64,000 nt of DNA, from the NCBI RefSeq assembly GCF_003003035.1, contig NZ_PVTS01000011.1, forward strand, positions 1-64,000, read 5' to 3'. The notes beneath the pieces were generated by a model. The model did not search any database. It saw only the letters and a program-made list of their open reading frames with translations, and had not been told where the DNA came from. Numbering within the stretch: position 1 is the first letter of the stretch; each line of letters opens with the position of its first letter. Position numbers and translations under genes: made by a program. The DNA comes from Marinilabilia salmonicolor (GTDB lineage: Bacteria > Bacteroidota > Bacteroidia > Bacteroidales > Marinilabiliaceae). Shown piece after piece: positions 433 to 20,029 of the stretch.

Positions 433-2106
433 TCAAAACACCCCAATCTCCCCACTTCCCCCAAACCGATTTTTCTCAGCCCTGGCGACACCACCGGTAA
501 CCACTACTGAAGTATCGCAATCATGCTCCCATTCAGCACTTCCCCGGAAATTTCCGGTTTTGGTAACCTTATGGATGGTAACCAGATTCATGTTGGGGTA
601 TTTCAAGGTAAGTTTGGTGGCACCATCCGGAGAGAGACGGAGACTGTCGGCACTATCCAGGAACACCACATCGTATTTGCTCAAATCCGCTGGTATCTTA
701 TCGACCAGAAAGAAATCCGGATGCACTGCTTTGAGCATCTTGATTTTTTTCTGGAGGGTAGCTCCGAAACCTTCCTCATTGGCCACGAAGAGGACGGTTT
801 TCCCCATCTGGTCGGCCAGATATTTTGCCAGGTCGATTGCCAGGGTGGACTTGCCACTACCTCCTTTACCGTAGATCATCAAACGGAATGGTTCGCTCAT
901 TTCACCCAGAAGTTTATGCCACTTTCCGGAAAGGCCCATGGGATAGAAAGCTTTTTTCTCAAAGTCGGTGGAGGGTATTGCTTTTCCGGATTTGACCGTG
1001 ATTTTCCGGTTCTGTTTTTCCAAACCATCGATTCCGGCAAGACCTTCCAAACCATTAAGTTCTGACTGGCTGATGGTAGGGATAGTGCTACTTCCGGCAA
1101 TATATCTCTCCAGTGCTTTTCTAATAATCTGAAGTTTCGTGCTTAAAGGCTTTGAGGCATTAACCCCTGCTTTTCCGGCTTCGATCTTCTCCAATATCTT
1201 TTTTGCCTCCTCTTTAACTCCTGTTTTGCCCTGGATTCGTAAAAACCGTTTAATGACCAGAACTGCCGGCATGGTGGCAAGCCCGGTTGTAATAGATTTA
1301 AGCTCTGTAAGCTTATCTTCCGAGAAATTGACGGTTATGCTGCCACCATCATTGACCATGGCAATCAGCTTGTCCTGCATATACTCAATTTGGTCAGAGT
1401 AGCGCGAAGCTTTGCGCACCCGTCTTTCAATGATGGCTGTCTGTAGTGATTTCAGCATGGTGAGCAATTCCTCATGAGTCTTGGTTTTCCCGTTCATCGC
1501 CACAAAACGCCTTAGAAAAGATACTTCAGCATCCACCTTTTCGGTATGTTCGGGAAGTGGTTTGTCGATGCGGGCCAGTTTCTGCTTAATGAGCCCTTTC
1601 AAAATCGTTTCAGAAACTTCCTTTTTGGTGCCCTTGTCAGTTCGATAAACGTAGGTCGGTTCGCCCGATTCTGTATGCGAAAGGGATTCAATTTCCGATT
1701 TTTCCACATATCCGTTTACATAGGCATAGAGGAATTGACCTGCTTTGTATTTGTGCTTTTTCAGCTTTTTGCGGGTTTGGCGCGGCTTTTTTTGTTTTTG
1801 AGTTTCTTTGTTTTCCTGTTTCTTAGTTTTAGAATTTTTCTGTTTGGAAGTTTCTTTGTTTCCCGTTTTATCCTTTGTGCTTTTCAATGCTTCCGGATTG
1901 GCTTTGATGTCTTTGCCCAAATTCTCGAAATACTTATCCAGAATTCGATGGATAGTAGCCAGGTTGTCGGGGTTGGTTTCCTCATGAATGTTTTCAATAA
2001 TCTTAATGACCTCCGGGTGTTTGCGGTTAAAAAAGTCGCCGTGTGCCAGTTTTGAGAAGTCAATTCCTTTTGCTTTCTCAATGTAGTTGTCGATAGTAAA
2101 TGCCAT
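433..2106 (-). CDS. RadA/Sms-like RecA-fold ATPase with a long N-terminal extension
   Basis: This 557-residue protein ends in a P-loop ATPase core. It has Walker A GKGGSGKST (Lys about 419), Walker B-like VVFLDSAD (about 480), and at the extreme C-terminus KNRFG followed by EIGVF (about 544-557). KNRFG is the hallmark of RadA/Sms, the branch-migration ATPase of recombination. The RadA zinc finger and Lon-like C-terminal domain are absent. Instead there is a roughly 390-residue N-terminal region with a Lys/Gln/Asn-rich linker (about 85-125) and the motif GLEGLAGIDGLE (about 350). The ATG at 2106 is preferred because it carries the element's ATTTCACAAA start box and gives only a short gap after the helicase stop. 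It is the last gene of the operon. A role in element replication or recombination is inferred. Confidence 0.7.
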   Translation of the reverse strand: MAFTIDNYIEKAKGIDFSKLAHGDFFNRKHPEVIKIIENIHEETNPDNLATIHRILDKYFENLGKDIKANPEALKSTKDKTGNKETSKQKNSKTKKQENKETQKQKKPRQTRKKLKKHKYKAGQFLYAYVNGYVEKSEIESLSHTESGEPTYVYRTDKGTKKEVSETILKGLIKQKLARIDKPLPEHTEKVDAEVSFLRRFVAMNGKTKTHEELLTMLKSLQTAIIERRVRKASRYSDQIEYMQDKLIAMVNDGGSITVNFSEDKLTELKSITTGLATMPAVLVIKRFLRIQGKTGVKEEAKKILEKIEAGKAGVNASKPLSTKLQIIRKALERYIAGSSTIPTISQSELNGLEGLAGIDGLEKQNRKITVKSGKAIPSTDFEKKAFYPMGLSGKWHKLLGEMSEPFRLMIYGKGGSGKSTLAIDLAKYLADQMGKTVLFVANEEGFGATLQKKIKMLKAVHPDFFLVDKIPADLSKYDVVFLDSADSLRLSPDGATKLTLKYPNMNLVTIHKVTKTGNFRGSAEWEHDCDTSVVVTGGVARAEKNRFGGSGEIGVF

Positions 2107-2125: not shown

Positions 2126-5100
2126 TCAGAATTCAAATTCCATCTCCATTTCCAGCTCCAGAGCTGTTGCCAGGGAGAATGCTTTTGGTTTTTTAGTTTC
2201 TTTGTTTTGTCCGATGCGCTGCCTGTACCGTTTTTTGTCGATGGCCAGCTGCTGACGTGCATACGCTTCATCCGGATCCTGATGTGCGATGGCCTCAGAC
2301 ACATCTTCATCCTCAAAAATAAGCTCGTACATGGTTCGTGACATCTGTGCAGATAATGAGTATTTGTCCTGCAGAATCTGTGTCACTTTGGACAATACGG
2401 ACGGATCGAAGCTACCCACCATATTGCTGCTTCTTTTGTTGAAGCCGTCATTTCCGTTCATGAGCCTAAACAACTCTGAATCGGTGTAAACATCCTTGTT
2501 ACGGGCTCCAAAGGGAATTACCAGGTCATAACCATCGTAGCCACGGGACAACACAATGCCATTGGTCAGTGCTACCAGTGAGTTTCGCTGCAGTGATTGC
2601 AAATAAGGCAAAATCTTAATGACCGGCACCTGAACACTGGCTGTTGCTTTGTCCTTTTCCCATCCATCGGGCATCAGAATACCTTTTTCTTTGCCTCCGC
2701 CCTGCAAAGTAAAATCAATCAGCTTTCCCCGGTAATTGGCAATCCCTTGAAGAATATTGTCCGTTATGATGTAACGGGTAATGCGATCCGCCTGGCGTTT
2801 TTTCATCATCTCATCCCACTGGTTGAGAATCTCCACCTGACTGTAATTGTCCAGCGAACTGCTCAATCCTATGATTCGCTCCACCATGGCTCCCTGATCA
2901 CCCGAAAGAGCCAGTACCATGTATTTACGGCCATCACCAACCGCAAAGCGTACCTTGATTTTGGAAAGCGTGTATGGGTTTTCTTCCTTATGGTTAATGA
3001 CAAATCCCAGAAAAACGGACGGAGACGGATCATTGGAAACAATGTTGGGCACATAAACGCCTCGTCCTGGATAAAAAATCCTAATGCGGTTGCGGATTGC
3101 CCGCCTGAGAAGTTCCGATTTTTCCTGCTCCGATTTGATAAGTGATGCTTTGGAATTCTCAATCTCATCCATCCGTTTTTTAAGGTAAGCAGACTGTTCT
3201 GCCTGACTTTTCAGTTTTTTGTAATTCTTCTCCTGACGAATGTGCCTGCGGGCTACGTCCAGGCGTTTATCAATGTGATTGAGCATATTTTGAAGCCGGG
3301 TCTCCAACGATTTTTCCATTCCGGCAATGATCTTTTCCGTATAAACCATCGGATCATCAGTGCCGGTGGTTTGTCCAATCAATTCCTGAATCTGACTTTT
3401 GCGGAACGGCTTACGTAGATTGGCACAATCACATGTTTTCAATATGGAATCGCGTCCGAAAGCACTCTTGCCGCCTTTCCCGGCCTTGATGACTTTCCGG
3501 TCAATGACCACAGCATCCAGGGCAACAGCTTCCACCTCCAAATCGTATTCCTCGATTTGTTTGAGATACTCCACGTATTCGGTGTATCGAAGAGCCATAT
3601 CGGTATAGAATTTCTCCTGGTCGGCTACCGATAGAATCGCCACGCGACCCGACACTTTCTGAATACCCCCTTCGCGTACTTCCGGAACCTCTAAGCCAAG
3701 AGGTTTGCCCAGCATTTCATCGATCTCCGGATTTTCTATGAGGTAATCTGCTACCAGCTTGTCACCGTATTTGTTCAGGAAATCCACCTGCTCACCTATC
3801 TGACTCTGATTGGCCTTTTGGTTACTGGTGGTGTTGGCATCAAGACTCCGGAGTTTTCTTTGCAGCATCATTTGAAGCCTCTTTTCAGCCGGAATGGCTG
3901 ATGAGATATACCGATAACGGGGCTTGAGTATCTGTCCGGTGCGGTTGATGCGACCGCGTTTTTGCACCTCGGTATTAATGTCCAGTTCAGGCTGAAGCAC
4001 AATCATTTCACGCTGCTTTACCTGTCCTTTGGCAACTTTACGGGTTACAATGGCATGGGCAGATGCACCGGTGGATCCACTCTGGTTGATAAGCAGGCAA
4101 TCCACCTCATTATCGTTGAATTGCCGGAAAGCATCATTGGTGGCAACCCGTTTTCGGCTTAAAATAGTACCCGTTTCCTTCCCGGAAAACTGCACCATGA
4201 TTTTCCGCCCGGTTACCTCCGCCACTTTGAAGCCTGCCTTTTCAATGATTTCCACAATCCGGTCAATGGGAGATATGGTGATTCCGGTGGAAACGCGGTC
4301 TATCTCATCAGTAATCCGGTTGTATTCTGCCAGGGCCTCTTCGCTGATCATGGTCGGTTCCAGGTAATCGTATTTCTTCTGCCCCCGGTAATCGGTAATG
4401 GTAATTTTCAAAACCGATTTGAGCCCCTTGTACAAGACATGTTTAAAATCTGTATTAATGGCTTCTCCGGGTGCGGATTCAGCAATCTCTTCCAGGAATG
4501 AACCCATGGTATTGGCAAAGGCAATAATCGGCTTGCGTCCGGCTTTCAGCGAACGGATGGCATCACGGGCCACATCCTCCGCTTTCAGACTCAAAAGCAG
4601 CTGATTGATCACATTAAAAACTTTGGAGAAATAGGGCTGATTGTCCACCCCTGCAGAAGAAGTGCCTTTTCTGGAGCTGGCTTCCCCGCCTTCAGCCTTC
4701 ATGGCATCATCCATGTTATCTACCGCCTCGGTGACATAATCCTTTTGAAAGGCAATGATGTCCCGGATAATTTCCGTTACCTTATCAGCAATGCGGCGGT
4801 GTTCCCGCTCATTTTCTGTCAATGTTATGTAATCCACCTCAATACCTTCAAAAGAGCGTTCGCGGCGAATCATTTGTCCCTCCGACACCAGCTGGGCCGA
4901 GAGAATCTCCTGCAATGCCACCCCGCCACGGGTAATGGAATCCACCAGCTCATCTTTGGTCATGTTGGCCTCCGAGAGACAGGTTTTAAGGGCATAAATA
5001 GGCATATTGTCTGGTCGCTTGGCAAAGGTGGCAGAGAGGAATACCACTCCCGCAGCATTCTGAATTACATTCATCAGAAAAGTGCCTGTTTGTGAAGCAC

Positions 5101-6001
5101 CCGAAGCATTGTGAGCTTCATCCATAATGATAATATTCCCCTCGGCCATTGTTGCCAGGAACATTGGTTTTAATGGTTTCTTATCCGGCTGATTGAACTG
5201 GGTATAGGTAGCCAGGATTACATCATATTTCTTTGGCAGTTGCTGCGATTTGAAAACCGATTCCTGAACAGCTTTGGCATCCGGCTGATAGAGAATATTT
5301 CCTTCCGCATCCTTTATTTTGGTTTTGGCATCATCGGCATTCACGATAAACGGCACCAGATGTCCGGAACCAATATCTGCCAGGTCGCGGTAGATGTCAG
5401 AGAAAAGGTTGGGCTTTTCACTTAAAAATATGGGAATCTTCTTTTGCTGATTGGCATAACGGATCATGGCCGCCGCAATACGTCCTTTCCCTATGCCTGT
5501 CTGGTCACCCACTATCAGCGACTGATTGCGCTCTTCAATATTGTAAATGGCCAGAGCTACGGCATCTATCTGCTCGGCAGAAAGAGCTGATGCAAGTTCT
5601 TCCTTGCTTTTGTACCCCAGCTTTTTACGAACCAGCTCAAACACATTGCCTCCGATATGCTTTTTGATTTTACGAGCTGCAATGTGCGTCTCATCCGCCA
5701 TAGAATCGGGCACCTGGGTTTCCAGAATAACCCCTTCTTCCGAAACCGGGATATAAAGTTCTCCCAGTCCTTTGCCTGCAGACTTGTGACCACGGGAAGT
5801 CAGAAACAACTGCCAGTGATGGGGATTGCGCTCTGATAAATCTTTCAGCCGGCCTGAGAACTTTTTAAAGCCCGAAGCCGGTTCAAAACCCCAAAACAAC
5901 AGTTTTTCACTGATTTCAGGGGCGGGTCTTTTGTCGAACGTTATTGTTGCTTTCGATTGCAGGGCCTGTTTCTTTTTGTCAATCTGTATGTGAAAGGTCA
6001 T
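2126..6001 (-). CDS. Strawberry-notch (SNO) family superfamily-2 helicase
   Basis: This 1291-residue protein has SNO-type helicase motifs: Walker A-like GDQTGIGKGR (about 164-173), the ATYTQF region, DEAH (about 295) and FLSATF. A helicase C-terminal half follows, with NQSGSTGASAHAI and QKRGRINRTGQ (motif VI, arginine-finger type). SNO helicases are common in large phages and conjugative elements, often as part of polyvalent proteins. The C-terminus is a KETKKPKAF linker followed by the acidic-aromatic tag ALELEMEMEFEF, which recurs on two neighbouring proteins. It sits between the methyltransferase and the RadA-like ATPase. A role in remodelling or protecting incoming element DNA is inferred from the family, not shown here. 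Confidence 0.8.
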   Translation of the reverse strand: MTFHIQIDKKKQALQSKATITFDKRPAPEISEKLLFWGFEPASGFKKFSGRLKDLSERNPHHWQLFLTSRGHKSAGKGLGELYIPVSEEGVILETQVPDSMADETHIAARKIKKHIGGNVFELVRKKLGYKSKEELASALSAEQIDAVALAIYNIEERNQSLIVGDQTGIGKGRIAAAMIRYANQQKKIPIFLSEKPNLFSDIYRDLADIGSGHLVPFIVNADDAKTKIKDAEGNILYQPDAKAVQESVFKSQQLPKKYDVILATYTQFNQPDKKPLKPMFLATMAEGNIIIMDEAHNASGASQTGTFLMNVIQNAAGVVFLSATFAKRPDNMPIYALKTCLSEANMTKDELVDSITRGGVALQEILSAQLVSEGQMIRRERSFEGIEVDYITLTENEREHRRIADKVTEIIRDIIAFQKDYVTEAVDNMDDAMKAEGGEASSRKGTSSAGVDNQPYFSKVFNVINQLLLSLKAEDVARDAIRSLKAGRKPIIAFANTMGSFLEEIAESAPGEAINTDFKHVLYKGLKSVLKITITDYRGQKKYDYLEPTMISEEALAEYNRITDEIDRVSTGITISPIDRIVEIIEKAGFKVAEVTGRKIMVQFSGKETGTILSRKRVATNDAFRQFNDNEVDCLLINQSGSTGASAHAIVTRKVAKGQVKQREMIVLQPELDINTEVQKRGRINRTGQILKPRYRYISSAIPAEKRLQMMLQRKLRSLDANTTSNQKANQSQIGEQVDFLNKYGDKLVADYLIENPEIDEMLGKPLGLEVPEVREGGIQKVSGRVAILSVADQEKFYTDMALRYTEYVEYLKQIEEYDLEVEAVALDAVVIDRKVIKAGKGGKSAFGRDSILKTCDCANLRKPFRKSQIQELIGQTTGTDDPMVYTEKIIAGMEKSLETRLQNMLNHIDKRLDVARRHIRQEKNYKKLKSQAEQSAYLKKRMDEIENSKASLIKSEQEKSELLRRAIRNRIRIFYPGRGVYVPNIVSNDPSPSVFLGFVINHKEENPYTLSKIKVRFAVGDGRKYMVLALSGDQGAMVERIIGLSSSLDNYSQVEILNQWDEMMKKRQADRITRYIITDNILQGIANYRGKLIDFTLQGGGKEKGILMPDGWEKDKATASVQVPVIKILPYLQSLQRNSLVALTNGIVLSRGYDGYDLVIPFGARNKDVYTDSELFRLMNGNDGFNKRSSNMVGSFDPSVLSKVTQILQDKYSLSAQMSRTMYELIFEDEDVSEAIAHQDPDEAYARQQLAIDKKRYRQRIGQNKETKKPKAFSLATALELEMEMEFEF

Positions 6002-6085
6002 ATCATTTGTTTTTTAGTTTTTCTGTTTCTCTATTTTTCAGTTTTTTACTTCCTGAGTTTTTCTGTTTCAAAGTTTTTCTGTTTT
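6002..6085. repeat. Low-complexity A/T tract resembling the Lys-rich linkers of neighbouring genes
   Basis: Read on the minus strand, this gap is a run of AAAGAAACTAAAAAAC-like units. It is very similar to the DNA that encodes the NKETKKQ-type linkers inside the helicase, LPD1 and RadA-like genes. It looks like decayed or mobile linker repeat. I see no promoter or hairpin in it. Confidence 0.45.
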
Positions 6086-7537
6086 TCAATTTCTTTGTTT
6101 TAATCTTTCCTTAATAGCTGCGATGCGCGCCTCCCTGTTGTTGAAAACCCGGCCAACGGTTATTTCTTCTCCGTCGATAAACCGGGCTGTCCAGGTGCGA
6201 TTGTGATAAAACTGTACTTTGGAAAAAGCCTTGTATCCCTTTTCCCTTTTGTCGGCTTTGCAGGCAAAAAGCTCCGGTACGACCTGTGATTCCTGTAAAA
6301 CCAGGGGCTCTTTCTGGCTTTTAATGGTTATTTCCACAATACCGGAACGTGGTAATCCGGTCACGATGCCATTGGTAATGATGTTTCCGGTGGCCAGGAA
6401 CGAAACGCGGTCTCCGGTTTTGAAAAGGTGTTCCGCCTTGGGTTTCAGAGCAGCAAGATCCAGGAAGTGTCTGATGTCACAATTAAGGATCCGCTGGTAA
6501 AGTGCATCAAGGGAAGAGACCACTTCCCGCAGGTGCCGGCTCTTTGCGCTGCCTTGCGGGGCATAATCCGCAATGCCTCCGGGTGTCTCCTTACGTCCTG
6601 CAATCAGGATAAGACGTGTATCAAAAGCGGTTCCCTGGCGGGAATAGAGTTTGTGCCCGTCAATGGGAATGATGTCCTCCACATGATAAAAGTGATAGAG
6701 AAAATTCAGAAAGTAACGGTCACCCTTATTGGTAATCAGTCCTGAATCGGGATTGTAACGGGTATGCCCGCCAATGATTATGGCTGCCCGCCCGTCATCC
6801 TTCATGGTCTCCAGGGAGCGGATGGCCATGATGTGTTCCAGCTTTTTGATGTGAAAACCCTCAACCTGTTCGATGGCTTCGAGATCACCAAAAGGCGGGT
6901 TGGTAATGATTCCGTCATAGATTCGACCAAATCCGAATGGAAGAGAAGCATCCAGACTGGTTATGGTTTTAAATGGCTGCCGGTTCAGGTTTTGAAGACG
7001 GATCTTATCCAGCTCGTTCACATGAAGCTGTTTGTAAGGTAGTGCATGACAAAGCAGTCCGTTTCCGGCGCTGGGCTCAAAGTATTGGGCCTCTCCCTTG
7101 GCCTTTTTGACCCATAACCCGGCCAAAAAAGAAATAGGTGCCGGAGTTGAATACTGTTGCAAAAGCACACTCATGGAAGTGCGATGCGAGAGGTTAATCT
7201 GTGAGCGATAAAGCTCAACTATCCTCTCAAATCGTTGACGAAAGTTTATTTTTTCATTAAAGGCAATTCTTCGGGCTTCCAGTACAATGGCCAGTTCTGT
7301 CAGCTCTTTTACCTTGTTTTGGTTGTCAATACCAAAGCGCTGACGGGCCAGCTTCTCAATGGTGGTTTTGTTGTGAGAAGTCTTTTTGCGTAGCTCCTGC
7401 TGAACGGCTTTTACAAAATCCGTTTCCCGGGAATTGGAACTGATGGAATCCTCCGAAAAGGCGAATTCCATCTCTGTTTCCAGTTCCAGAGCCAGGGCAA
7501 TAGCCAATATGGTGAGTGCAACTTTTGCGGTTTTCAT
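6086..7537 (-). CDS. N6-adenine-type DNA methyltransferase-like protein
   Basis: This 483-residue protein has the SAM-binding motif FEPSAGNGLL (about 155-164) and the catalytic NPPF motif (about 215) of gamma-class amino-methyltransferases. NPPFGDLEAIE and a later LYSRQGTAFDTRL resemble the methyltransferase domains of phage and ICE polyvalent proteins. The start follows the LPD1 stop by 5 nt, which implies translational coupling. The N-terminus begins with a hydrophobic stretch (KVALTILAIALALELE) that runs into ALELETEMEFAF, the same acidic-aromatic tag found at the C-termini of the two flanking proteins. No restriction endonuclease gene is beside it, so a self-protection or orphan role is more likely than restriction-modification. 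Confidence 0.7.
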   Translation of the reverse strand: MKTAKVALTILAIALALELETEMEFAFSEDSISSNSRETDFVKAVQQELRKKTSHNKTTIEKLARQRFGIDNQNKVKELTELAIVLEARRIAFNEKINFRQRFERIVELYRSQINLSHRTSMSVLLQQYSTPAPISFLAGLWVKKAKGEAQYFEPSAGNGLLCHALPYKQLHVNELDKIRLQNLNRQPFKTITSLDASLPFGFGRIYDGIITNPPFGDLEAIEQVEGFHIKKLEHIMAIRSLETMKDDGRAAIIIGGHTRYNPDSGLITNKGDRYFLNFLYHFYHVEDIIPIDGHKLYSRQGTAFDTRLILIAGRKETPGGIADYAPQGSAKSRHLREVVSSLDALYQRILNCDIRHFLDLAALKPKAEHLFKTGDRVSFLATGNIITNGIVTGLPRSGIVEITIKSQKEPLVLQESQVVPELFACKADKREKGYKAFSKVQFYHNRTWTARFIDGEEITVGRVFNNREARIAAIKERLKQRN

Positions 7538-7542
7538 AATTT

Positions 7543-9591
7543 TCAGAATTCAAAAGTCATTTCCATCTCCAGTTCCAGAGCTCTGGCCATCGTCACCGGA
7601 GGATTTTGTTTTTTTGTTTCTTTATTTTTTTGTTGGGAAGTTTCTTTGTTTTTCTGTTCTGATGGTTTTTTATTTTTCTGTTTTTCAGTTTCCACAAAAA
7701 CAACCCCGCCTTCAGCATTGCCCTGTTTATCCAGTTCTATAAATTCATCCACCCGCTGATCGGTAAAGGGCACAAAATGACCCAGGCCAATCACTTCACG
7801 GGCCTCACTGATAATGCTCTCAAACAATCGGTTAAGAAAAGTTCTTTCTTCTCCCTGAGGATAAACGCCCACCCCGAAATGCGCTCCGCTAACCAGATAG
7901 TTGTTTTCCATGCCTTTGGCACTCAACCGGTCAAAGACAAAACATTCAAAAGCCCTGGCAAACATCTCCACCGGAGAAGCCCAGTATTTTGTGCCGTAGA
8001 ATTTCGATTCCGCATAGAATTCTGAGATGTTGTTAAGGGTAAGCGGGATATCCAGAAATTCAAGACCAAACTTTCGTGGAATACTGCTCAGCAGCGCTTT
8101 GGCATTGCTGTAAAAGGAAGGATATTTTAGATAGCCCGGGTATCTTCGTTTCAGAAAATCGAGAGATTCTTCAGGTGACTCTCCGTATTCAACGCGAAAG
8201 GCGTATTTGGCATCTTTGGTATAAAACCGTCGGCTAATGATTTTTCCGGCATTGTGCTCATTATTGCCTCGGTAGATAAAGCGGGCCAGATTAGTGACTT
8301 TGTTGTATAACTCAACTGCCTTCGGATTTTGAATATAGCTGTCACTATCAATTTCTATATGCTTCTCACGAAATGCATAACATCCTGTGGCCATTTTACC
8401 TTTTCGAAGACCATAGCTCATCCCCAACAGATGGTCAAAGAAATGTCCCCACTCGTGTGCCACGGTTCCGTCCCCGCGCTTTCGCGTGAGATTGATAATT
8501 TGACGCATGGGCTCATAGTGCGCAAGGGCTTTCCCTTTTCCCCTGGCGGCAAATGCAATGGCCAGATTTCCGATTTCATGAATCCGGCAGATGTCAATAT
8601 CCAAAGCTTCACATAAATCTGTAATGGCACCAATGAAATAGCGGATATGCTCTTTCAGCTCCTTGTCGGTAATGGAATTGCCAATCTGCACGGCATTAAA
8701 ACCGTATCGCCTGGTCAGTACCTTTTCCGAGATGTCATTGTCAGAAATAAACAACCCACCTTTGCGCCTGATGTGCGAAAGCGGCAGGCCTGAGTTGATC
8801 TCAATTTTGTCGCTTTTACCGGTATTTTTTGTCGCCTTTTTGAAAGCCCAGTCCCAGGAAGGTTCCTTGTAGAGGACATTGGCGGTTTCATGAACTTTCC
8901 TGCTTTTCAATATCAGCATATTGGAAAAACGCGAAGAAAAGTTCTCACTTAAAAGACGCTGGAAGTAGTATCGCTTTTTCGTTTTAAAATAATGATCCAA
9001 TCGCTCGTAATGGTCTTTCAGAAAAAGATCAACTTCAGTATAATCCCGGCAATCTTTAAATTCCAGGGAGTGCCGTATCATTCCGGAAAGTTCTATCGTC
9101 ATTTGCGCGGAAGTGCTGTAGGCCATGGCTGCATCCAAAGACCACAAAACCTCAGGCAAATTATCCACTAAAGGCTTTACAGAATCATACTGACCAAGCT
9201 TCTGCTGGAGGTATTCGGCCGTCCTGACATAAACTTTCCGCATATCTGCCGTGTTTGAAGAAGGCTTTGGCGGAAAAGATTTTCGGAATTCATTCTTCAG
9301 ATAGCAAAGGGCCGGATCGGCATTGGATTCCTTCAGGATTTTAAAGTCATAAGCAGGCCAGACGTTGTCTTTTACCACCATTTCAATGGCTGAGACTTCA
9401 TCCTGTTCCAGTTTGTCCAGGTCTTTGGAGTTGACCAGAGATCGCATGGCAGCGCGCTCCTTGGCAGAACCCGGAACATACTCACCGGCATCCCTGAATT
9501 TGCGTTTTTTCTGCTTCTCCTTTAGGAATTCCACTAAATCAGGCGACTGGCCTAACATACTTCCAAGAAAAATGGTTCTTACCTTTCCCAT
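7543..9591 (-). CDS. LPD1-type large polyvalent protein with zincin motif
   Basis: This 682-residue protein contains VAHEWGHFFDHLLG (about 378-391), an HExxH zinc-protease signature typical of the LPD1 domain of phage and conjugative-element polyvalent proteins. A downstream EMFARAFECF may supply the third metal ligand. The N-terminal 300 residues are mostly helical and unassigned. The C-terminus is a Lys/Gln/Asn-rich linker with KNKET repeats, then ALELEMEMTFEF. The start ATG (9591) overlaps the end of the upstream small gene by 13 nt. Family knowledge suggests a protein delivered with the DNA or acting early against host defences. Peptidase activity is unproven. Confidence 0.7.
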   Translation of the reverse strand: MGKVRTIFLGSMLGQSPDLVEFLKEKQKKRKFRDAGEYVPGSAKERAAMRSLVNSKDLDKLEQDEVSAIEMVVKDNVWPAYDFKILKESNADPALCYLKNEFRKSFPPKPSSNTADMRKVYVRTAEYLQQKLGQYDSVKPLVDNLPEVLWSLDAAMAYSTSAQMTIELSGMIRHSLEFKDCRDYTEVDLFLKDHYERLDHYFKTKKRYYFQRLLSENFSSRFSNMLILKSRKVHETANVLYKEPSWDWAFKKATKNTGKSDKIEINSGLPLSHIRRKGGLFISDNDISEKVLTRRYGFNAVQIGNSITDKELKEHIRYFIGAITDLCEALDIDICRIHEIGNLAIAFAARGKGKALAHYEPMRQIINLTRKRGDGTVAHEWGHFFDHLLGMSYGLRKGKMATGCYAFREKHIEIDSDSYIQNPKAVELYNKVTNLARFIYRGNNEHNAGKIISRRFYTKDAKYAFRVEYGESPEESLDFLKRRYPGYLKYPSFYSNAKALLSSIPRKFGLEFLDIPLTLNNISEFYAESKFYGTKYWASPVEMFARAFECFVFDRLSAKGMENNYLVSGAHFGVGVYPQGEERTFLNRLFESIISEAREVIGLGHFVPFTDQRVDEFIELDKQGNAEGGVVFVETEKQKNKKPSEQKNKETSQQKNKETKKQNPPVTMARALELEMEMTFEF

Positions 9592-10560: not shown

Positions 10561-10594
10561 GGGGTTAGGGATTAAGGGGGTTAGGGGGTAAGGG
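10561..10594 (+). repeat. Telomere-like G-rich run (predicted G-quadruplex)
   Basis: The plus strand has five G-runs of 3-5 bases separated by TTA, ATTAA, TTA and TAA, with the unit GGGGTTAGGG. It covers the last codons of the muramidase (residues PLPPNPLNP) and the gap before the holin-like start. The mRNA carries the C-rich complement, and the G-rich strand is the transcription template. It could stall polymerase or be a slippage-generated repeat. Confidence 0.6.
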
Positions 10595-11134
10595 TTTGTC
10601 ATCCATTGAAACTTGATTGAATACCCGTTCTTTGAGCCATCCGTAGATAAATTTGCGTTGTTCCGGTCGCGCCTGGGCAATCCTCACATAACGCGAACAC
10701 TGCACCGCATTCATCAGCATACAAAGTCTTTCGGGCATGGGGTAACGGTTGACAAAGGCCAGGGTTTTTATCCCCAGGCGACCATCCAAGTCCAGGTCGC
10801 TGCCATACCGGTTCCGGTAATTAAGCAGATTGCAGCTGTTCTGCAGAATTTCCACCGCTGTCTCCGGGCCCATATTTACGGCAGTGTCCAGCAACTCAAA
10901 AGCCAGCTGGTCATTGCTTATTTTATCAAAGCCGGGTTTGTACCAGTACTGCCGGAGATAAATCTCCCTGGCCGTTTTTACATTCAAATCTGCCATTGGC
11001 CCGTCATACCCGTTATCTCTGGCCGTTTTCAGGGTAATCCCGAATTTTGTTTCACCTCCCAAATCTGACGGATCATTCACGTACCCGCCTTCGATTTCAA
11101 TGATTTTGGAAATGAATTGATGTTCTCTTGCCAT
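10565..11134 (-). CDS. GH108-type N-acetylmuramidase (endolysin)
   Basis: This 189-residue protein opens with IIEIEGGYVNDPSDLGGETK, the GH108 signature in which the Glu of EGGY is catalytic. A C-terminal peptidoglycan-binding region (LNYRNRYGSDLDLDGRLG onward) completes the usual GH108 architecture and length. It would cleave peptidoglycan to release particles. The ATG at 11134 carries the ATTTCACAAA start box. A spanin-like gene lies upstream and a holin-like gene downstream, which forms a compact lysis cassette. There is no signal peptide, so export would depend on the holin. Confidence 0.85.
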   Translation of the reverse strand: MAREHQFISKIIEIEGGYVNDPSDLGGETKFGITLKTARDNGYDGPMADLNVKTAREIYLRQYWYKPGFDKISNDQLAFELLDTAVNMGPETAVEILQNSCNLLNYRNRYGSDLDLDGRLGIKTLAFVNRYPMPERLCMLMNAVQCSRYVRIAQARPEQRKFIYGWLKERVFNQVSMDDKPLPPNPLNP

Positions 11135-11625: not shown

Positions 11626-13293
11626 TTATCTGTTAAATCCGTTGTAGTTGAGCTTTATCAAACCGCCTTTGGGCATTTCGTTGCATTTCACGAAAGTGCC
11701 TCCCAGAAGAAAAGTCCCATCACGCATAGGCTTCATGAAATAGGCGGTTCCTTTGGTATTGGAAGAAGTTATGATTTCAGCTGTCCGGAAGCTTCGGTCG
11801 AAGGAACCATCACTGTTGATCCGGAAAAGACTGTTGGAAAAGACATCTTCCTGGTGAACCAAAGGATCAGCGCCATTGGTGCTCAGAAGAATCTTCCCGT
11901 CAGGTGTGGGATACAGTCTTCCCCCATTGCTGTTATGAGGATATGGCCCCAGGGAGAAATCAGTAACAAAAGTTTCATCCACAGTCCCGTCTGAATGTAA
12001 ACGCCAAATCTGGCTTGCTCCGTTAATACCTGTGCTTTGCCCTCCGGCCACCAGGATTTTCCCGTCAGGTAATACCACGATTCCGTTGAACCGCAATTCG
12101 GTAAGCCCTGATTTAAAGGTGGGGTCGGTTGTTCCGTCAGGATTCAGACGAACGCAAAAGAGGCTCTCCGAACTTCCGTTAATCCGGTTTTTACTACTGT
12201 AGCAAACCAGAATTTTCAGATCTTCCTGGATTGCAATAACGGACGGGGCATTCGTAGCAGAACTTCCCAAGAAAGAGAAAGTATTGTCAAAGGTTCCATC
12301 CGCATTCAACCGAACCAACTTGCCTGTAAAGGGTGTGCCTTCATAGCTTGCTATGGATGTGCCCCACACATAAACTTTCCCGTCCGGTGCTACATCAAAT
12401 CCATTGGGAGCTGCGGGACTACCGGAAGAGCTATAAAATCCCGTTACGGTATTTAAAAACAACGGATCCTGATTCCCTTCTTTGTCCAGCTTGCAAATAT
12501 GCTTGAAACGGTCATTGTAAAACTGTCCCAACACAATGGCACCGCTTCCATCGGGAGTCAGCTTCACCTTTGAGATGTAGGAATTCAAAAAACCGCCAAA
12601 ATCCGTGCGAAAGGGAGTTCCGTCCGCATTCAGCATAAAAAGGCGGTCAGTAGTTCTTGTTCCAAGGTAATCATAAGCCGAGGCAACCGCCCAGATTACA
12701 GGGTGCTCCGGATCCCCGCTGTAATCCACATCGATGGAAGAAACAGAGGGCGTCGAGGAAGAAGTTACATTGAAACCCCGCGAATTCTGATTAAAGATTC
12801 GTCTCCCCATTTTTTTGCGTGGTAAAAGCACCGAAGCAAATTCAGCGGTTGAATTGATTTCCATCTTGTATATTCCTTCTTTTACGGTGACAGTTGCCTC
12901 AGAGGCAAGGGAGAAATTATCAATTACCCTTTTCTGCTTACCGAAAACCCCGGTAAGCGACAAGTGTGAAATACCGGAGTTATACTCAGGCTGTGACAGC
13001 TCCACATCCTGATCAAAGACTACACATTGCCTGTCATCTGTTGGAGAATTAACCAACAAAGGTGAAACCAGAGCGTTCATCTCTTCTTCCAGCAGTGGCT
13101 TCCAGTGATCATTGGTGATACCTCCTGTCAGCACATATTTGGTTTTGGTACTGAGCACGCGGGTTTCCATGCCATCATAGCGAATTGCCGGGTTTATGGC
13201 GTTCCGCTCTTCCAGGGTAGCAACCACTGTTCTCTGAGTATCTACAGGCACATTCCTGTTAACTTTAAATCCGTCAATGACTTCAATAGGCAT
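11626..13293 (-). CDS. Delta-60 repeat propeller protein, probable receptor-binding or spike protein
   Basis: This 555-residue protein has a unique N-terminal 180 residues followed by repeated units of the form RLNPDGTTDPTF with PDGKILVAGG strands. This is the delta-60 (DUF5122) repeat that builds beta-propellers. I count about seven such DG-x-x-D-x-x-F units between residues 200 and 545. The ATG at 13293 lies 10 bp after the previous stop and gives a sensible N-terminus (MPIEVIDGFK). A longer frame from 13368 would overlap the upstream gene. Placed between candidate spike and lysis genes, it is best read as a host-recognition protein. No chaperone or tail-fibre triple-helix motif is seen. 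Confidence 0.6.
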   Translation of the reverse strand: MPIEVIDGFKVNRNVPVDTQRTVVATLEERNAINPAIRYDGMETRVLSTKTKYVLTGGITNDHWKPLLEEEMNALVSPLLVNSPTDDRQCVVFDQDVELSQPEYNSGISHLSLTGVFGKQKRVIDNFSLASEATVTVKEGIYKMEINSTAEFASVLLPRKKMGRRIFNQNSRGFNVTSSSTPSVSSIDVDYSGDPEHPVIWAVASAYDYLGTRTTDRLFMLNADGTPFRTDFGGFLNSYISKVKLTPDGSGAIVLGQFYNDRFKHICKLDKEGNQDPLFLNTVTGFYSSSGSPAAPNGFDVAPDGKVYVWGTSIASYEGTPFTGKLVRLNADGTFDNTFSFLGSSATNAPSVIAIQEDLKILVCYSSKNRINGSSESLFCVRLNPDGTTDPTFKSGLTELRFNGIVVLPDGKILVAGGQSTGINGASQIWRLHSDGTVDETFVTDFSLGPYPHNSNGGRLYPTPDGKILLSTNGADPLVHQEDVFSNSLFRINSDGSFDRSFRTAEIITSSNTKGTAYFMKPMRDGTFLLGGTFVKCNEMPKGGLIKLNYNGFNR

Positions 13294-13303
13294 AGCGCAG
13301 GGT

Positions 13304-14245
13304 TTATGGATAAATAACTGAAAAAACTTTGTTGACAACCGAAGTGGGCATGATGCTTCTCCAGACAAAATAGCTGTATGACCATTTTGGGAACGCCTGT
13401 GTGGTGGTAACCATCACATTTTGCATGGAAAAGGAATCTGAAACATCGAAGCCGTTGTTGTCACGAAAAACCGGTTTGATATTTCTGAAAGGGGTGGCAA
13501 ACCAGATGTATTGGTTTTCTCCGTTTAAAGGAATGGCAAACTCTCTGGTGGATTCGGGGACTACCAGTCTGGCCAGACCTGAATACAGATTAGAGCCACT
13601 CATAATCGGGCCCATGCCATAAAGAACCGGATAATAAAAGTGAAAGGTTCGCAAGCCCGATGCTATGCTTCCCGGCGATCCGTTTCCTCCCACATCAGCC
13701 AGAGCTTTAAAAACCTGCTTTTTATCGTGTAAAGGGGCAGTTCCATCGCCCTGAATGGTTATTGGTGTGGAAAAATCGTTGGTCGTGCCCACATGTACCA
13801 ACGCATCGTTGTTGGTCACATGAATAATCCGCCGATTGGCAACCTCTGTCTCATCGTTTGCGGTAATGATTGCCCTGAGCGTAACGGTCTGACTGGTGCC
13901 ATATTCATAGGTGGCATCACCGCCTGCAAAACCAATTTCGGCCGGAACAAATGGATAAAAGTATTTCTCCAGAAAACCTTTTACAGAGATGGCTGCAGGA
14001 TTAATTTGAGGGATGCCGGCCCGCTTTACCATTCGGTTGCCATCAAAGGGTAAATCAGTAATTACAGGCAGCTCATCTGTATTTACGGGATTATCGGAGT
14101 CACTCACGCTTCGGATGGAGGAAACAAGGTAAGGCTCATTGTCAATGATGACGTAATCTCCTTCCACAAAACGAACCCTTTGAGAAGAAAAGACATAATC
14201 GGGAAACAAAGTCTCTTTGCCGCTGGCAGAAGTAATGTATATCAT
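13304..14245 (-). CDS. Beta-rich structural protein, candidate vertex or spike base
   Basis: This 313-residue protein has no signal peptide or TM segment. It is rich in beta-strand sequence, with an Ig-like middle (EYGTSQTVTLRAIITANDET, about 110-130) and a C-terminal domain rich in Tyr, Trp and Phe. I do not recognise the family. The gene lies directly upstream of the propeller protein with a 10-bp gap, and the two probably form one surface appendage. The function is inferred from position only. Confidence 0.45.
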   Translation of the reverse strand: MIYITSASGKETLFPDYVFSSQRVRFVEGDYVIIDNEPYLVSSIRSVSDSDNPVNTDELPVITDLPFDGNRMVKRAGIPQINPAAISVKGFLEKYFYPFVPAEIGFAGGDATYEYGTSQTVTLRAIITANDETEVANRRIIHVTNNDALVHVGTTNDFSTPITIQGDGTAPLHDKKQVFKALADVGGNGSPGSIASGLRTFHFYYPVLYGMGPIMSGSNLYSGLARLVVPESTREFAIPLNGENQYIWFATPFRNIKPVFRDNNGFDVSDSFSMQNVMVTTTQAFPKWSYSYFVWRSIMPTSVVNKVFSVIYP

Positions 14246-14257
14246 AGCCGGATAGAT

Positions 14258-14833
14258 TTAAAGCATTTGGTAAGCCTCTTCGAATTGACGATCGGTTACG
14301 GGAAAAGCAGGGCCGTTTTCCATCACAGACATGGCCCGAACCAGTTTTCTCAATAGTGCTTTGGTGCTGACTAGTCCGGCATTTTTATCCAAACCTGTCT
14401 GAGAGGCAACAAAAGTGATGTAGCCGGAAGTATTGTTTTCCGAGATTGGTGCATACTTGCCGATAAGTTTGACCAAGGTGTTGTACCCGCGGTCAATATC
14501 GTTTTTCAGCTGTTTTATCATGGCTCTGACCCCGTACTCAAAAGAGATAAACTGCTCAAATGTCCCGTCAGAATTCTTATCTGCCGGAAGCTTTCCGTTC
14601 CAGGCAGAGGATGTAATCTTCAGGTTTCCCGGATTGTTATTGCGGATTCCCCGGGGATAAGTAGCGCTGAGAAATCCCGGCAGTCCGAAATAATTTCTGA
14701 CCACCGGGTCACTCTCACGACTGACATGGGGAAGAGATTTTCTTTTTTTGGCCTGTCTCACTGCTATGATGGCCAGTATCATGCTCCCTGCAATTAATGA
14801 GGCAGCTACAATGTGTCTGGTTCTGCTTTTCAT
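14258..14833 (-). CDS. TM-anchored lytic transglycosylase (phage P5-like muralytic virion protein)
   Basis: This 191-residue protein has an N-terminal TM helix (about 8-25) and then RGIRNNNPGNLKI, W-x-G, FEQFISFEYGVRAM and YAPISENNTSGY. These motifs belong to the small muralytic proteins usually annotated as structural protein P5. Such proteins are virion components that open peptidoglycan during entry. The ATG at 14833 is chosen over an upstream TTG and nearly abuts the previous stop at 14836. The membrane anchor fits a virus with an internal membrane, or a protein that acts from the host inner membrane. Confidence 0.7.
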   Translation of the reverse strand: MKSRTRHIVAASLIAGSMILAIIAVRQAKKRKSLPHVSRESDPVVRNYFGLPGFLSATYPRGIRNNNPGNLKITSSAWNGKLPADKNSDGTFEQFISFEYGVRAMIKQLKNDIDRGYNTLVKLIGKYAPISENNTSGYITFVASQTGLDKNAGLVSTKALLRKLVRAMSVMENGPAFPVTDRQFEEAYQML

Positions 14834-14835
14834 TT

Positions 14836-15318
14836 TCAAAAGGGAACATTAAGTGCATTAAAAATTTCGCGAACCCGAATTTTGTCTTTACTGCCCAGCT
14901 CTTCATTGAACCAGCCTACCAGGTTCAGGTCACTACCAAACCAGAGACTGGTCACGACCCCATACCGGCGAATGCCAAAAGCTTTGATGAGCATCAGCAG
15001 ATCATCGCGGTTGCGCATACTCTGAATGATGGCAAAAATGGTCTCCTCGTCCGTTCCCGGGCCGTCCATGGCCAGGTAAAGACTCTGTGCCATGATGCCG
15101 TATTCACTGTCGCTGAAGGAAAGGCCCGTTTTGCTTATCTGCAGTTTGCTCAGATTGTTCCCGGGAGTTTCTTTGGTATTTCCCTTGATCTTTTTGTAAA
15201 TAAAATAGCCTCCACCAACAGTCACAGCCGTTAGGAATACCAGTTTCATTATTGAAAAGGATTTCTCCATTATTCCGGGGGCGGCCTGTACGGCAGCGGC
15301 AGCAATCAAAGGATTCAT
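14836..15318 (-). CDS. Single-TM protein with an annexin-like repeat
   Basis: This 160-residue protein has an N-terminal Ala-rich segment and a TM helix (about 24-42, IMKLVFLTAVTVGGGYFIY). A C-terminal domain follows in which LYLAMDGPGTDEETIFAII and the later FGSDLNLVGWFNEEL match the annexin repeat layout (A-x-x-G-x-GTDE ... GSDL ... EL). Annexin-type repeats bind membranes, usually with calcium, and are rare in bacterial viruses. The gene is next to the TM-anchored transglycosylase and is probably a virion membrane protein. The similarity is recognised by eye and should be treated as a fold hypothesis. Confidence 0.55.
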   Translation of the reverse strand: MNPLIAAAAVQAAPGIMEKSFSIMKLVFLTAVTVGGGYFIYKKIKGNTKETPGNNLSKLQISKTGLSFSDSEYGIMAQSLYLAMDGPGTDEETIFAIIQSMRNRDDLLMLIKAFGIRRYGVVTSLWFGSDLNLVGWFNEELGSKDKIRVREIFNALNVPF

Positions 15319-15516: not shown

Positions 15517-16518
15517 CTAAGCCTCCTTTGGTTGCAATGATTTTTCATTGATCAGTTCCAGTAATTCCAGCTGACCTTCGGGATTGTTTTCCATGAAAAC
15601 CATCACATGTATCAGGTGTTCAATGGACGCATCTGTCCAGGTGGAAAGAACCTCGGATATTTCACGAATGGTATTGTCTTTGGGTGTTGCTTCAGTTATC
15701 TGACTTTCTACTTTGGACTGAGATTGATTTGGGCCGGAAGTTGACTGATTCACATCTTCATCAATCCCCAGGAGCCCTTTCAGTATAGGACTTTTGGTGG
15801 CCAGCTGCATGGCAATATTGGTGATGGCTCCAATGCCCACATCTTTAATCAGACGGTTGGGTTTGTATTGCTCATTCTCCTCTTTCAGTTCTTCGTTGGC
15901 CGTTTCCAGACTCTCCAGAGACAGGCGGGTCTGACGAAGATCATCATCCAACTCCCTGTTCTCCGTGGTGAGCTTCTCCAGTTTCTCTTCAAGTGCCGAA
16001 ATATGGTTTTTCAGCTCCAGTTCGGTGAACTTCCGGTCATAGTTGAGCCGGTCAATCATCATATCTTTGGTGTGGCGTTCCCGCTCAAAAGCCAGTAGAG
16101 CGCCCAGCCCGTTTTTCACCCCTTCAAATCCTTCAATGCCACTCAATCCTTCGAAAACATTGTCGATGGCAGAAGGAGCAACTATGGGTTGCATCATTGG
16201 CATGTTGGCCGTGGTACCTCCGGGTGCAGGTTCATCGCTCACGCGGATTCTTAAAGGGTAATTGCTAAGGGCATTCCCCTTGATACCGGTAAACTCATCA
16301 ATGATGATTACATCGGGCGTGAAATTGTTCATCATCTTGTTGATGCATTCGCGAAACAATGTCCCGCCTTTCATTCTTTTGGTGATGAATTTATGGGCAA
16401 TTCCGGGGTTAGCGTCATTCTCATAACTTACCAGAAAAGCATAAGGGCTTTTTGCCTCGTCCCAGTAGTCGTATTTCCGGGCGATGGACTCAATTTCTTT
16501 TAAATACTTCTTTTCCAT
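15517..16518 (-). CDS. Coiled-coil structural or scaffolding-like protein
   Basis: This 333-residue protein has an N-terminal globular domain of about 125 residues. A Pro/Met-rich linker carries FEGLSGIEGFEG (about 125-136), and a long coiled coil follows (about 155-225). There is then a short hydrophobic stretch, a Ser/Gln-rich linker and a helical C-terminus. The GLSGIEG motif resembles GLEGLAGIDG in the RadA-like protein and VEGLAG in the 727-aa protein. I do not recognise the family. Coiled coil and position beside the capsid candidates suggest scaffolding or an internal structural role. Confidence 0.5.
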   Translation of the reverse strand: MEKKYLKEIESIARKYDYWDEAKSPYAFLVSYENDANPGIAHKFITKRMKGGTLFRECINKMMNNFTPDVIIIDEFTGIKGNALSNYPLRIRVSDEPAPGGTTANMPMMQPIVAPSAIDNVFEGLSGIEGFEGVKNGLGALLAFERERHTKDMMIDRLNYDRKFTELELKNHISALEEKLEKLTTENRELDDDLRQTRLSLESLETANEELKEENEQYKPNRLIKDVGIGAITNIAMQLATKSPILKGLLGIDEDVNQSTSGPNQSQSKVESQITEATPKDNTIREISEVLSTWTDASIEHLIHVMVFMENNPEGQLELLELINEKSLQPKEA

Positions 16519-18594: not shown

Positions 18595-19356
18595 TTACTT
18601 CTTGTGGACTTTACATCCGATAAGCGTGAACTTCACTGCTTCAAGCGCTGATCCGGCTTTGGTCATGGTCAACCTGGGTTTAATTTCCATCTGGGGTTTG
18701 ATCCACTTGGGGTGATCCAGTTTGAAAATGTGAGGTTTGCCACCATCGGTACTTTCGTTGTTGAAAATCTCGCAGGAGATATTTTCAGGCAACAAACTTT
18801 CAGCTCCCACTTTTAATTCAAACTCACCGTTTTTAATTTTGGCCGGCAGATCATCCACAAAATCACTGTCTGTGGCAGCTCCGCCATCCGGGAATGTTCC
18901 GAAGTCAAGACACACGGCAGTAACCAGGAAATGCTCATTCAAATCGAGCTTGGCACCATTCAGGTTGCTGCGTCCTGTTGCCTTATCATCGCTACTGGTA
19001 AGCAGATCAATAACACTTTTGCCTTCGATGGCTTTAATTCCGTAGATGTTGGCATCCACCACCTGAAGCGCCCTGTTGGAAAGACCTTTTACAATCTCCG
19101 GAGGCAATTCATTCTTCTTCATTTCGAAGTAGCCCTTGGAGGTAATATCAGTGCGAAAAGCCGCAGCTGTCATTACACTGTTTTTACCTTTGTTTTGTCC
19201 AGCGCTGTGGGCCTGACGAACAAAGGGTTTTACCGCTTTTTGTGAAATTCTTTTGGCAGCGGGACGACGCACCTGGGCAGGAACGCCGATCTCACCCAAT
19301 ACACCTTCGATTTCCTCTTCCATGGAAGAGCTGGCATACTCTAAACCTTCAATCAT
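18595..19356 (-). CDS. Beta-rich structural protein with acidic N-terminal arm (253 aa)
   Basis: The first 35 residues are acidic and contain IEGLEY and EGVLGEIG. A basic stretch follows (about 33-60, RRPAAKRISQKAVK), and then a roughly 180-residue beta-rich domain with a Cys near the end. The arm looks like a propeptide or scaffold-interacting arm. The compact domain could be a second capsid or cement protein. I do not recognise the family. A 100-bp gap with T-rich sequence separates it from the next gene downstream. Confidence 0.4.
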   Translation of the reverse strand: MIEGLEYASSSMEEEIEGVLGEIGVPAQVRRPAAKRISQKAVKPFVRQAHSAGQNKGKNSVMTAAAFRTDITSKGYFEMKKNELPPEIVKGLSNRALQVVDANIYGIKAIEGKSVIDLLTSSDDKATGRSNLNGAKLDLNEHFLVTAVCLDFGTFPDGGAATDSDFVDDLPAKIKNGEFELKVGAESLLPENISCEIFNNESTDGGKPHIFKLDHPKWIKPQMEIKPRLTMTKAGSALEAVKFTLIGCKVHKK

Positions 19357-19417: not shown

Positions 19418-20029
19418 TTACGCCGTTATGGAAAGATCATCATCTTCATCAATAGCCGAGATAGAGCCGTCTCCATCAAGTCCTGCAGTAATCTCATCAC
19501 TGGTCACGGCAGATAAGTCGCCAATATCAGCGGATCCCTGAATCTGGTCGGATACTTTCTCCGCATTCACATCCTGATCATCGTCAGGCCCCATCACGGG
19601 AATCTGATATTCGGGCAGTGCCTGATACGAAGGAGGAACATCTCCCAGGCCGGGGCCGGCAAGCATCTTCTGACCGGTGAACTTCTGAATTCCATCCACA
19701 ATACCATAAGCAGCAACGCCTAATCCCATGCGTTTAATCAGGGGGTGACGAATCATCTGATTAGCTATCAGACCTACGCCTGCAGTGGCCACGGGACGAA
19801 TTAAATCTTTCAGGTCGGTGCCGTCAATGCCCATCATACCGCTCACGGTATTGGTGCCTTGTTCAACAAAGCCGGCCACTGATTTTCCCAGGATAAGTCC
19901 TGCTCCGACGGCAGCTGCAACTTTTAAATCGTCCATCATCTTATCTCCCGATACACGGGAGGAACGCCTGCGGGATGCTCTGCTTGCATACCTTCGAGGC
20001 CTTCTGGTTGTTGTTTTTCTTTTTGCCAT
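19418..20029 (-). CDS. Basic, membrane-associated virion-like protein (203 aa)
   Basis: The N-terminal 27 residues are extremely basic (KRKTTTRRPRRYASRASRRR), as in DNA-condensing virion proteins. Two short hydrophobic Gly/Ala-rich segments follow (about 35-52 and 85-110), and then a strongly acidic C-terminal tail. It carries MMGIDG and LAGPGLGD motifs. The ATG at 20029 has the ATTTCACAAA start box. Basic tail, membrane segments and acidic tail would suit a protein linking genome and internal membrane. This is inference. Confidence 0.5.
   Translation of the reverse strand: MAKRKTTTRRPRRYASRASRRRSSRVSGDKMMDDLKVAAAVGAGLILGKSVAGFVEQGTNTVSGMMGIDGTDLKDLIRPVATAGVGLIANQMIRHPLIKRMGLGVAAYGIVDGIQKFTGQKMLAGPGLGDVPPSYQALPEYQIPVMGPDDDQDVNAEKVSDQIQGSADIGDLSAVTSDEITAGLDGDGSISAIDEDDDLSITA

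Follow-up and report, generated by a model that had tools for sequence, protein, structure and literature searches.

Phage P1 encodes DarB, a methylase-helicase that is loaded into the capsid through a peptide signal and protects the phage DNA (PMC9024508, in its available part; PMC5512222), and the available part of PMC12810830 states that packaging of DarB requires DarA and Hdf. Short targeting peptides are also used in encapsulin cargo loading, where they make hydrophobic and ionic contacts and are joined by a flexible linker (available part of PMC7925596), and the polyvalent proteins described by Iyer et al. 2017 (PMC5512222) include methylase-helicase pairs and HExxH, LPD1, LPD23 and PBECR1 domains. 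The stretch analysed here (the window) comprises 64,000 nucleotides of Marinilabilia salmonicolor (assembly GCF_003003035.1, contig NZ_PVTS01000011.1, positions 1 to 64,000 of the forward strand). It holds a prophage-like element in which a helicase, an adenine-methyltransferase-like protein and an LPD1-domain protein carry the same short peptide, referred to below as the tag.

As in the P1 Dar system, an adenine methylase and a superfamily 2 (SF2) helicase (SWI2/SNF2-type in P1; recognised here through PF13872/PF13871, together with an NPPx methyltransferase) are encoded separately or fused beside virion genes, and a short peptide is present which in P1 directs DarB to the capsid. The P1 signal, however, is N-terminal and, according to the available part of PMC9024508, has no consensus among the Dar proteins, whereas the tag found here, from sequence alone, is visibly common to several enzymes, mostly C-terminal and variable between lineages. 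Encapsulin cargo is similar in that several enzymes bear one short terminal peptide behind a linker, although some copies are internal or N-terminal here, the carriers are phage DNA enzymes and no encapsulin shell was seen, none having been searched for. The domains listed for polyvalent proteins recur in these elements, but mostly as separate proteins, and no shared peptide tag is mentioned in the available part of PMC5512222. Within the open-access (PMC) literature, as far as its texts were available, no description of such a tag was found.

The largest carrier is a SNO-type (strawberry-notch) SF2 helicase of 1291 residues (2126..6001, minus strand; PF13872 2.5e-22, PF13871 4.9e-19), with ALELEMEMEFEF as its final 12 residues (2129-2164, minus strand). 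The adenine-methyltransferase-like protein of 483 residues (6086..7537, minus strand; phrog_14770 3.5e-14) has an NPPF motif and carries ALELETEMEFAF near its N-terminus at residues 16-27 (7457-7492, minus strand); a Pfam scan of this protein gave no match, and its family name is based on the NPPx motif and on relatives with Eco57I/N6_Mtase matches. The LPD1-domain protein of 682 residues (7543..9591, minus strand; PF18796 1.1e-19) has an HExxH motif and ends in the 12 residues ALELEMEMTFEF (7546-7581, minus strand). The sequence-only reading had placed one tag on these three enzymes, and the sequence together with a genome-wide pattern search bore this out: a 24-base tag pattern with ≤3 mismatches had 3 sites in the whole 4.79 Mb genome, which were the three tag copies, and the backwards control had 0. 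An 18-base pattern matched 5 times in the window against 0.59 expected, with 2 of the 5 being register-shifted matches on two of the same copies. Over all pairs of open reading frames (ORFs) of the element, the tag made up three of the top five 16-residue windows (ranks 2, 3 and 5). Between the SNO and LPD1 copies, compared over 12 codons, one residue differed and GAA and GAG were exchanged synonymously at three codons. All three tags were kept in the same-genus relatives (M. salmonicolor and M. rubra); the SNO tag was identical in these and the window genome, the LPD1 tag differed by one residue among the three genomes and the methyltransferase tag had one residue different in each of the two relatives.

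The top-scoring 16-residue window (63) was the linker of the LPD1 protein against an untagged adaptor/ATPase protein at 433-2106. This Lys/Glu-rich KNKET linker (7603..7650, minus strand) does precede the LPD1 tag copy, as had been claimed for both C-terminal copies, but it is shared independently of the tag and is found in the untagged protein as well. T-rich low-complexity DNA coding for the KNKET linkers of 433-2106 and 7543-9591 also fills an intergenic gap at 6001-6110. The linker may derive from a spreading simple repeat, judging from its sequence, although the tag does not.

SNO matches were present in 22 of 100 related genomes. The best 80 of 86 loci of the genome scan were kept, and loci of ≥7 kb with a recognisable SNO ORF of >600 residues numbered 101; after removal of incomplete ORFs and of entries whose last 60 residues duplicated those of another, 73 helicase C-termini were left, still rich in Marinilabiliaceae. 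The ALELE-type tag of the window was found, among the related genomes scanned, only in the two same-genus relatives. Marinilabiliaceae relatives at approximately 50% identity had helicases ending in or near KLKLVKLRAKAILIKQKQL, which their methyltransferases and LPD1 proteins carried too, and the helicase tags were LELEALALELELELLNFAA in Ohtaekwangia, KYKYRLRLQLQ in Flectobacillus, KILKLKALAAKAKYKL in Emticicia, LELEAESIIIMQMQ in Ichthyobacteriaceae and KFVFKLKLQLQLAA in genomes G051 and G008. Across homologous Bacteroidota elements the tag thus differed between elements and was the same within an element. With a shared tag defined as a 14-residue window with a BLOSUM62 score of ≥45 between the helicase C-terminus and another ORF of the locus, 42 of the 73 helicase C-termini shared a tag. 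The controls at this score gave 0 for reversed, shuffled and mid-protein sequences and 1 for a dissimilar foreign C-terminus (each of 73); at a score of 40 they gave 1, 0, 1 and 5, respectively. More weight is given to the class-level test, because the set of 73 is rich in Marinilabiliaceae: the partner was best matched by the helicase tag of its own element in 11/11 tag classes, and in 10/10 classes when the partner was set by position only as the nearest NPPx ORF. Locus L060 had no NPPx ORF and its partner was named by hand.

The 31 helicases without a shared tag comprised 15 methyltransferase-helicase fusions, four tagged helicases for which no partner was found (L135, L136, L137, L145) and 12 in which no tag was visible by eye. 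The last group, which counts against a common signal, consisted of 11 distant homologues (L061, L062, L065, L066, L150, L153, L155, L156, L158, L159, L166) and L129, whose ORF is cut short. The SNO ORF of L129 (9998-14439) ends prematurely, and the ORF after it was named reverse-transcriptase-like from reading its sequence, so that an intron or some other insertion may lie within the SNO gene. A neighbouring 277-residue protein in L166 ends in KRKRKQMQQALAVEIEL, which resembles the L060 tag, and an ORF of 429 residues in L085 reached a score of 40 with the tag, probably a chance match. A scan of viral contigs gave no match with the window SNO protein and 15 distant loci with the LPD1 protein. 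In Bacteroides phage BS-TP4, the best phage match to the helicase, the helicase lies inside a 5391-residue polyprotein in which a search showed no shared tag and whose sole long alternating run was unrelated. Genomes G030, G042, G055, G058, G039 and G008 each had four to six SNO matches, in part fragments at contig ends, and several such elements per genome are likely.

In the 42 elements with a shared tag, 63 of 706 other ORFs were tagged partners, which motif sorting divided into 38 NPPx ORFs, 18 HExxH ORFs, 1 cytosine methyltransferase and 6 others; a methyltransferase or HExxH motif was therefore present in 57 of the 63, and one of the six others was a further DNA methyltransferase (L055, phrog_757 3.4e-65). 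Five more ORFs of 221-241 residues scored 36-43, and their L057 member was a C5 methylase by Pfam. Scores of ≥36 were reached by 39 of 46 NPPx ORFs near the helicase; the remaining 7 were untagged (<36), which also speaks against a common signal. Of the partner tags, 43 stood no more than 25 residues from the C-terminus, 16 were internal and 4 N-terminal. Directly after the tag, -AA ended 16 of the 73 helicases (L064, L068, L076-L078, L113-L115, L122, L127, L132, L134, L139, L142, L152 and L165).

A fused homologue with the tag between its domains had been proposed as a check, and such proteins were found. Fifteen of the 73 helicases were fused behind a methyltransferase, modules which are separate proteins in the window, and 10 of these 15 had an inner copy of the end tag, located after the NPPx motif and ahead of the helicase core (scores 39-54), whereas 0 of the 58 unfused helicases reached 39. 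The weakest inner copies were those of L117 and L133 (39), below the top reversed control of the fusion set (40, in L122), and the fusions L078, L114, L115, L139 and L165 had none. Inner copies also preceded a second methyltransferase or a PBECR1 domain. The presence of the inner copy in fusions and its absence from unfused helicases indicate that the tag belongs to the enzyme module.

Most tags consisted of alternating hydrophobic and charged residues, acidic in some lineages and basic in others. The beta moment exceeded the alpha moment in 16/16 typed tags, and in 12 of the 16 fewer than 100 of 2000 shuffles reached the beta moment of the tag; the common basic tag was a weak case (409 of 2000 shuffles).

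A candidate for a protein that reads the tag is the adaptor, which in the window is fused to a RadA/Sms-like ATPase (557 residues, 433..2106, minus strand; TIGR00416 1.4e-8, far under the cut-off; PDB RadA 5lkm 1.6e-6). Its N-terminal domain (approximately residues 1-62; 1921..2106, minus strand) is the putative reader. Locus L119 has acidic tags and close relatives with basic ones. Among its 18 ORFs with homologues, two were the tagged methyltransferase (charge change -8.4) and helicase (-13.2), and in the remaining 16 the largest opposite change, +7.8 in 15 residues, was that of the adaptor encoded behind the tagged genes, the next being +4.7. Adaptor homologues, standalone or fused to the RadA/Sms-like ATPase, were found in 53 of the 73 elements, and 51 were used in the charge correlation, tree and column tests, with the untagged L150 and L166 and the 20 elements without an adaptor match left out. 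With 17 helicase clusters at 65% identity as the unit and a 40-column window of the domain, adaptor domain charge varied inversely with tag charge (rho -0.82, p 5e-5, uncorrected for the choice of the adaptor after the L119 comparison; rho -0.83 with L119 added). This window was the most negative of 338 adaptor windows, and the best of 1121 helicase windows gave -0.69. The top four charge-associated columns of 118 adaptor columns (34, 42, 68 and 76) all lay in the N-terminal domain, and the held-out window genome and L114 fell with their class.

Several results weigh against this assignment and against docking through such a partner. No adaptor was found in 20 of the 73 elements, some of them at contig ends; Flectobacillus and Emticicia are tagged and had no clear adaptor (best match 0.012 in a small search), and the Runella gene after the tagged helicase encodes a different protein. 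L119 failed the column test. The window genus has a domain charge of -4 to -5 with an acidic tag, contrary to the trend, with three of the four key columns basic. In a tree-aware test, which cannot reach significance because there were only four tag sign changes, two pairs agreed, none disagreed and two showed no difference (p 0.5). With ties included, the end tag of the same protein was the best fit to the inner copy in no more than 7 of the 15 fusions, since the acidic lineages match each other. Taken as sequence evidence, the charge relation is suggestive support for the adaptor, and the chances that its N-terminal domain is the reader appear evenly balanced. A second motif, LxGLxGI/L, occurred 60 times against 15.2 expected from shuffled proteins (approximately 4×; 369 ORFs of 20 loci). 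In most lineages it is located where the adaptor part ends, and several virion proteins have it too; in the window it lies at 1027-1059 (minus strand) in the adaptor/ATPase and in the proteins at 15517-16518, 19418-20029 and 20060-22243. A maturation cleavage site or a second docking motif would be possible from its sequence.

The tag could have no role of its own and have arisen by DNA repeat spread or gene conversion, as the repetitive codon pattern in the window and the near-identical codons in L146 (10/11) and L147 (10 and 11 of 12) would allow. Over 726 identical residues, however, the same codon was used at 321 against 300.6 expected from codon usage. Since codon identity was close to that expectation, the peptide was kept and not the DNA, and the same placement recurs in many lineages, so that this origin, already disfavoured, was rejected and is barely credible. 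The claim that the DNA is conserved too applies to the similar tag DNA of the window, but the likeness was not kept across lineages. Most homologues lacked the window sequence but had a tag of their own, which is not the absence with repeat spread that had been named as the refuting outcome. The tag is almost certainly real and selected. It might tie the enzymes together by strand-to-strand pairing without a reader, in line with its amphipathic strand shape and its likeness within an element, but the charge sign was equal in 63/63 similar tag pairs of one element (pairs picked by similarity and not independent), which would repel each other, and fused helicases without other tagged partners are still tagged; this explanation is very unlikely. 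ssrA-type tags end in -AA, as do the 16 helicases listed above, and a degradation signal would account for such ends, but other ends vary, EFEF closes the tags of the window, and copies also occur internally and N-terminally, leaving it scarcely plausible.

Inner copies exactly between modules, and HExxH proteins among the carriers, would suit a protease site at which a polyvalent protein, whether ancestral or present-day, is cut into its modules, or else a remnant of fusions that have since split. At most partner tags (43/63) the free C-terminus is no more than 25 residues away, where cutting separates nothing, and tags stay alike across separate proteins of one element, which makes this explanation improbable; of the three handling options named by the sequence-only reading it explains least, and docking to a partner is the best supported. 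Direct binding of the tag to a capsid or other virion protein, with the adaptor uninvolved, would follow capsid-targeting sequences and encapsulin targeting peptides. In P1 the peptide that loads DarB is N-terminal and carries a reporter as well (PMC9024508, available part), encapsulin targeting peptides are short and C-terminal with flexible linkers and hydrophobic and ionic contacts (PMC7925596, available part), and the tagged genes adjoin virion genes. In the charge swap of L119, a single case, no virion protein had an opposite change as large as that of the adaptor, and direct binding is considered unlikely, with better standing than the four preceding alternatives. The broader claim, that the enzymes have a handling signal in common, is well supported: the tag is found on unrelated enzymes within an element, changes in step among them, is kept at the protein level and stands between fused modules. 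A docking or targeting signal is highly probable.

We infer a docking partner, charge pairing, packaging into the virion and a role against restriction. In the proposed mechanism, the SNO helicase, adenine and other methyltransferases and the LPD1 peptidase-like protein of temperate phages would each bear a strand of 12-19 residues, in many cases preceded by a flexible linker and located terminally or, in fusions, where the modules join, and a partner encoded by the same phage would recognise it. This putative reader is the adaptor's N-terminal domain; the adaptor gene comes after the tagged ones. Contact would be made by packing of hydrophobic faces and pairing of unlike charges, so that tag and reader could drift together and flips of sign would be possible. 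The purpose would probably be to gather the enzymes in one complex carried in the virion, which would guard the entering phage DNA against restriction like DarB in P1, and the DarA and Hdf requirement of DarB resembles the role that the adaptor would have. The sequence evidence rather favours this account as a whole: a tag for docking or loading that a partner from the same phage reads, the adaptor domain being the best candidate, and that gathers enzymes to ride in the virion against restriction. By analogy, it is about an even question whether the tagged enzymes ride in the virion. It is put forward more tentatively, as somewhat doubtful, that each phage lineage has a private code, marking its anti-restriction enzymes with one peptide and a matching reader on the RadA-like adaptor that co-evolve through charge reversal, so that a phage would gather and deliver only its own enzymes.

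The element has its larger ORFs on the minus strand. It encodes an endolysin (10565..11134, minus strand; phrog_315 7.6e-43), a virion-type lysozyme/transglycosylase (14258..14839, minus strand; phrog_873 2.6e-35) and a probable capsid protein, and its LPD1, methyltransferase, SNO and adaptor/ATPase genes then stand one after another. The ORF at 26001-27218, which is integrase-like on reading of its sequence, had 25 relatives, spread over 22 loci. Since the window begins at a contig edge, part of the element may be missing. The probable capsid protein, a virion protein of 253 residues (18595..19356, minus strand) with relatives in 40 loci, was predicted as a single jelly-roll (AlphaFold2 pLDDT 70.7). 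A structure search with its model gave SPV1 6oj0 as the best hit, with 146 aligned residues, a root-mean-square deviation of 3.7 and a Z of 8.8, which is near background for models without clear relatives, and a BFVD search gave weak matches only, capsid proteins among them. The model of a second virion protein was poor (pLDDT 52), and 50,697 phage records contained no match to a virion protein of 281 residues. The 14 window proteins scanned gave no portal or terminase family; matches to tail families were given by 11626-13368 (phrog_25379 7.8e-9) and the lysozyme (phrog_2276 1.8e-13). The ORF at 20060-22243 (minus strand) had a possible transglutaminase-like domain (PF04473 E 0.0027, under the cut-off), and the same weak match stands ahead of the tagged Flectobacillus and Emticicia methyltransferases. 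The predicted fold of the 253-residue protein is like that of the tailless vertical single-jelly-roll viruses (SPV1, P23-77, SH1/HHIV-2), at the near-background Z given above; unlike these, the elements sit in Bacteroidota and encode large enzymes. A modelled jelly-roll capsid protein together with large enzyme genes may represent an undescribed tailless phage group of Bacteroidota.

How a phage chooses large enzymes for its particle is an open question, and according to the available part of PMC9024508 the P1 authors expected a signal common to the Dar proteins and found none. The elements described here have a visible common signal that can be traced through many lineages, with a candidate reader and natural sign-swapped variants, and its specificity is therefore directly testable. 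Such a system would also supply orthogonal peptide tags with which proteins could be directed to a partner of choice.

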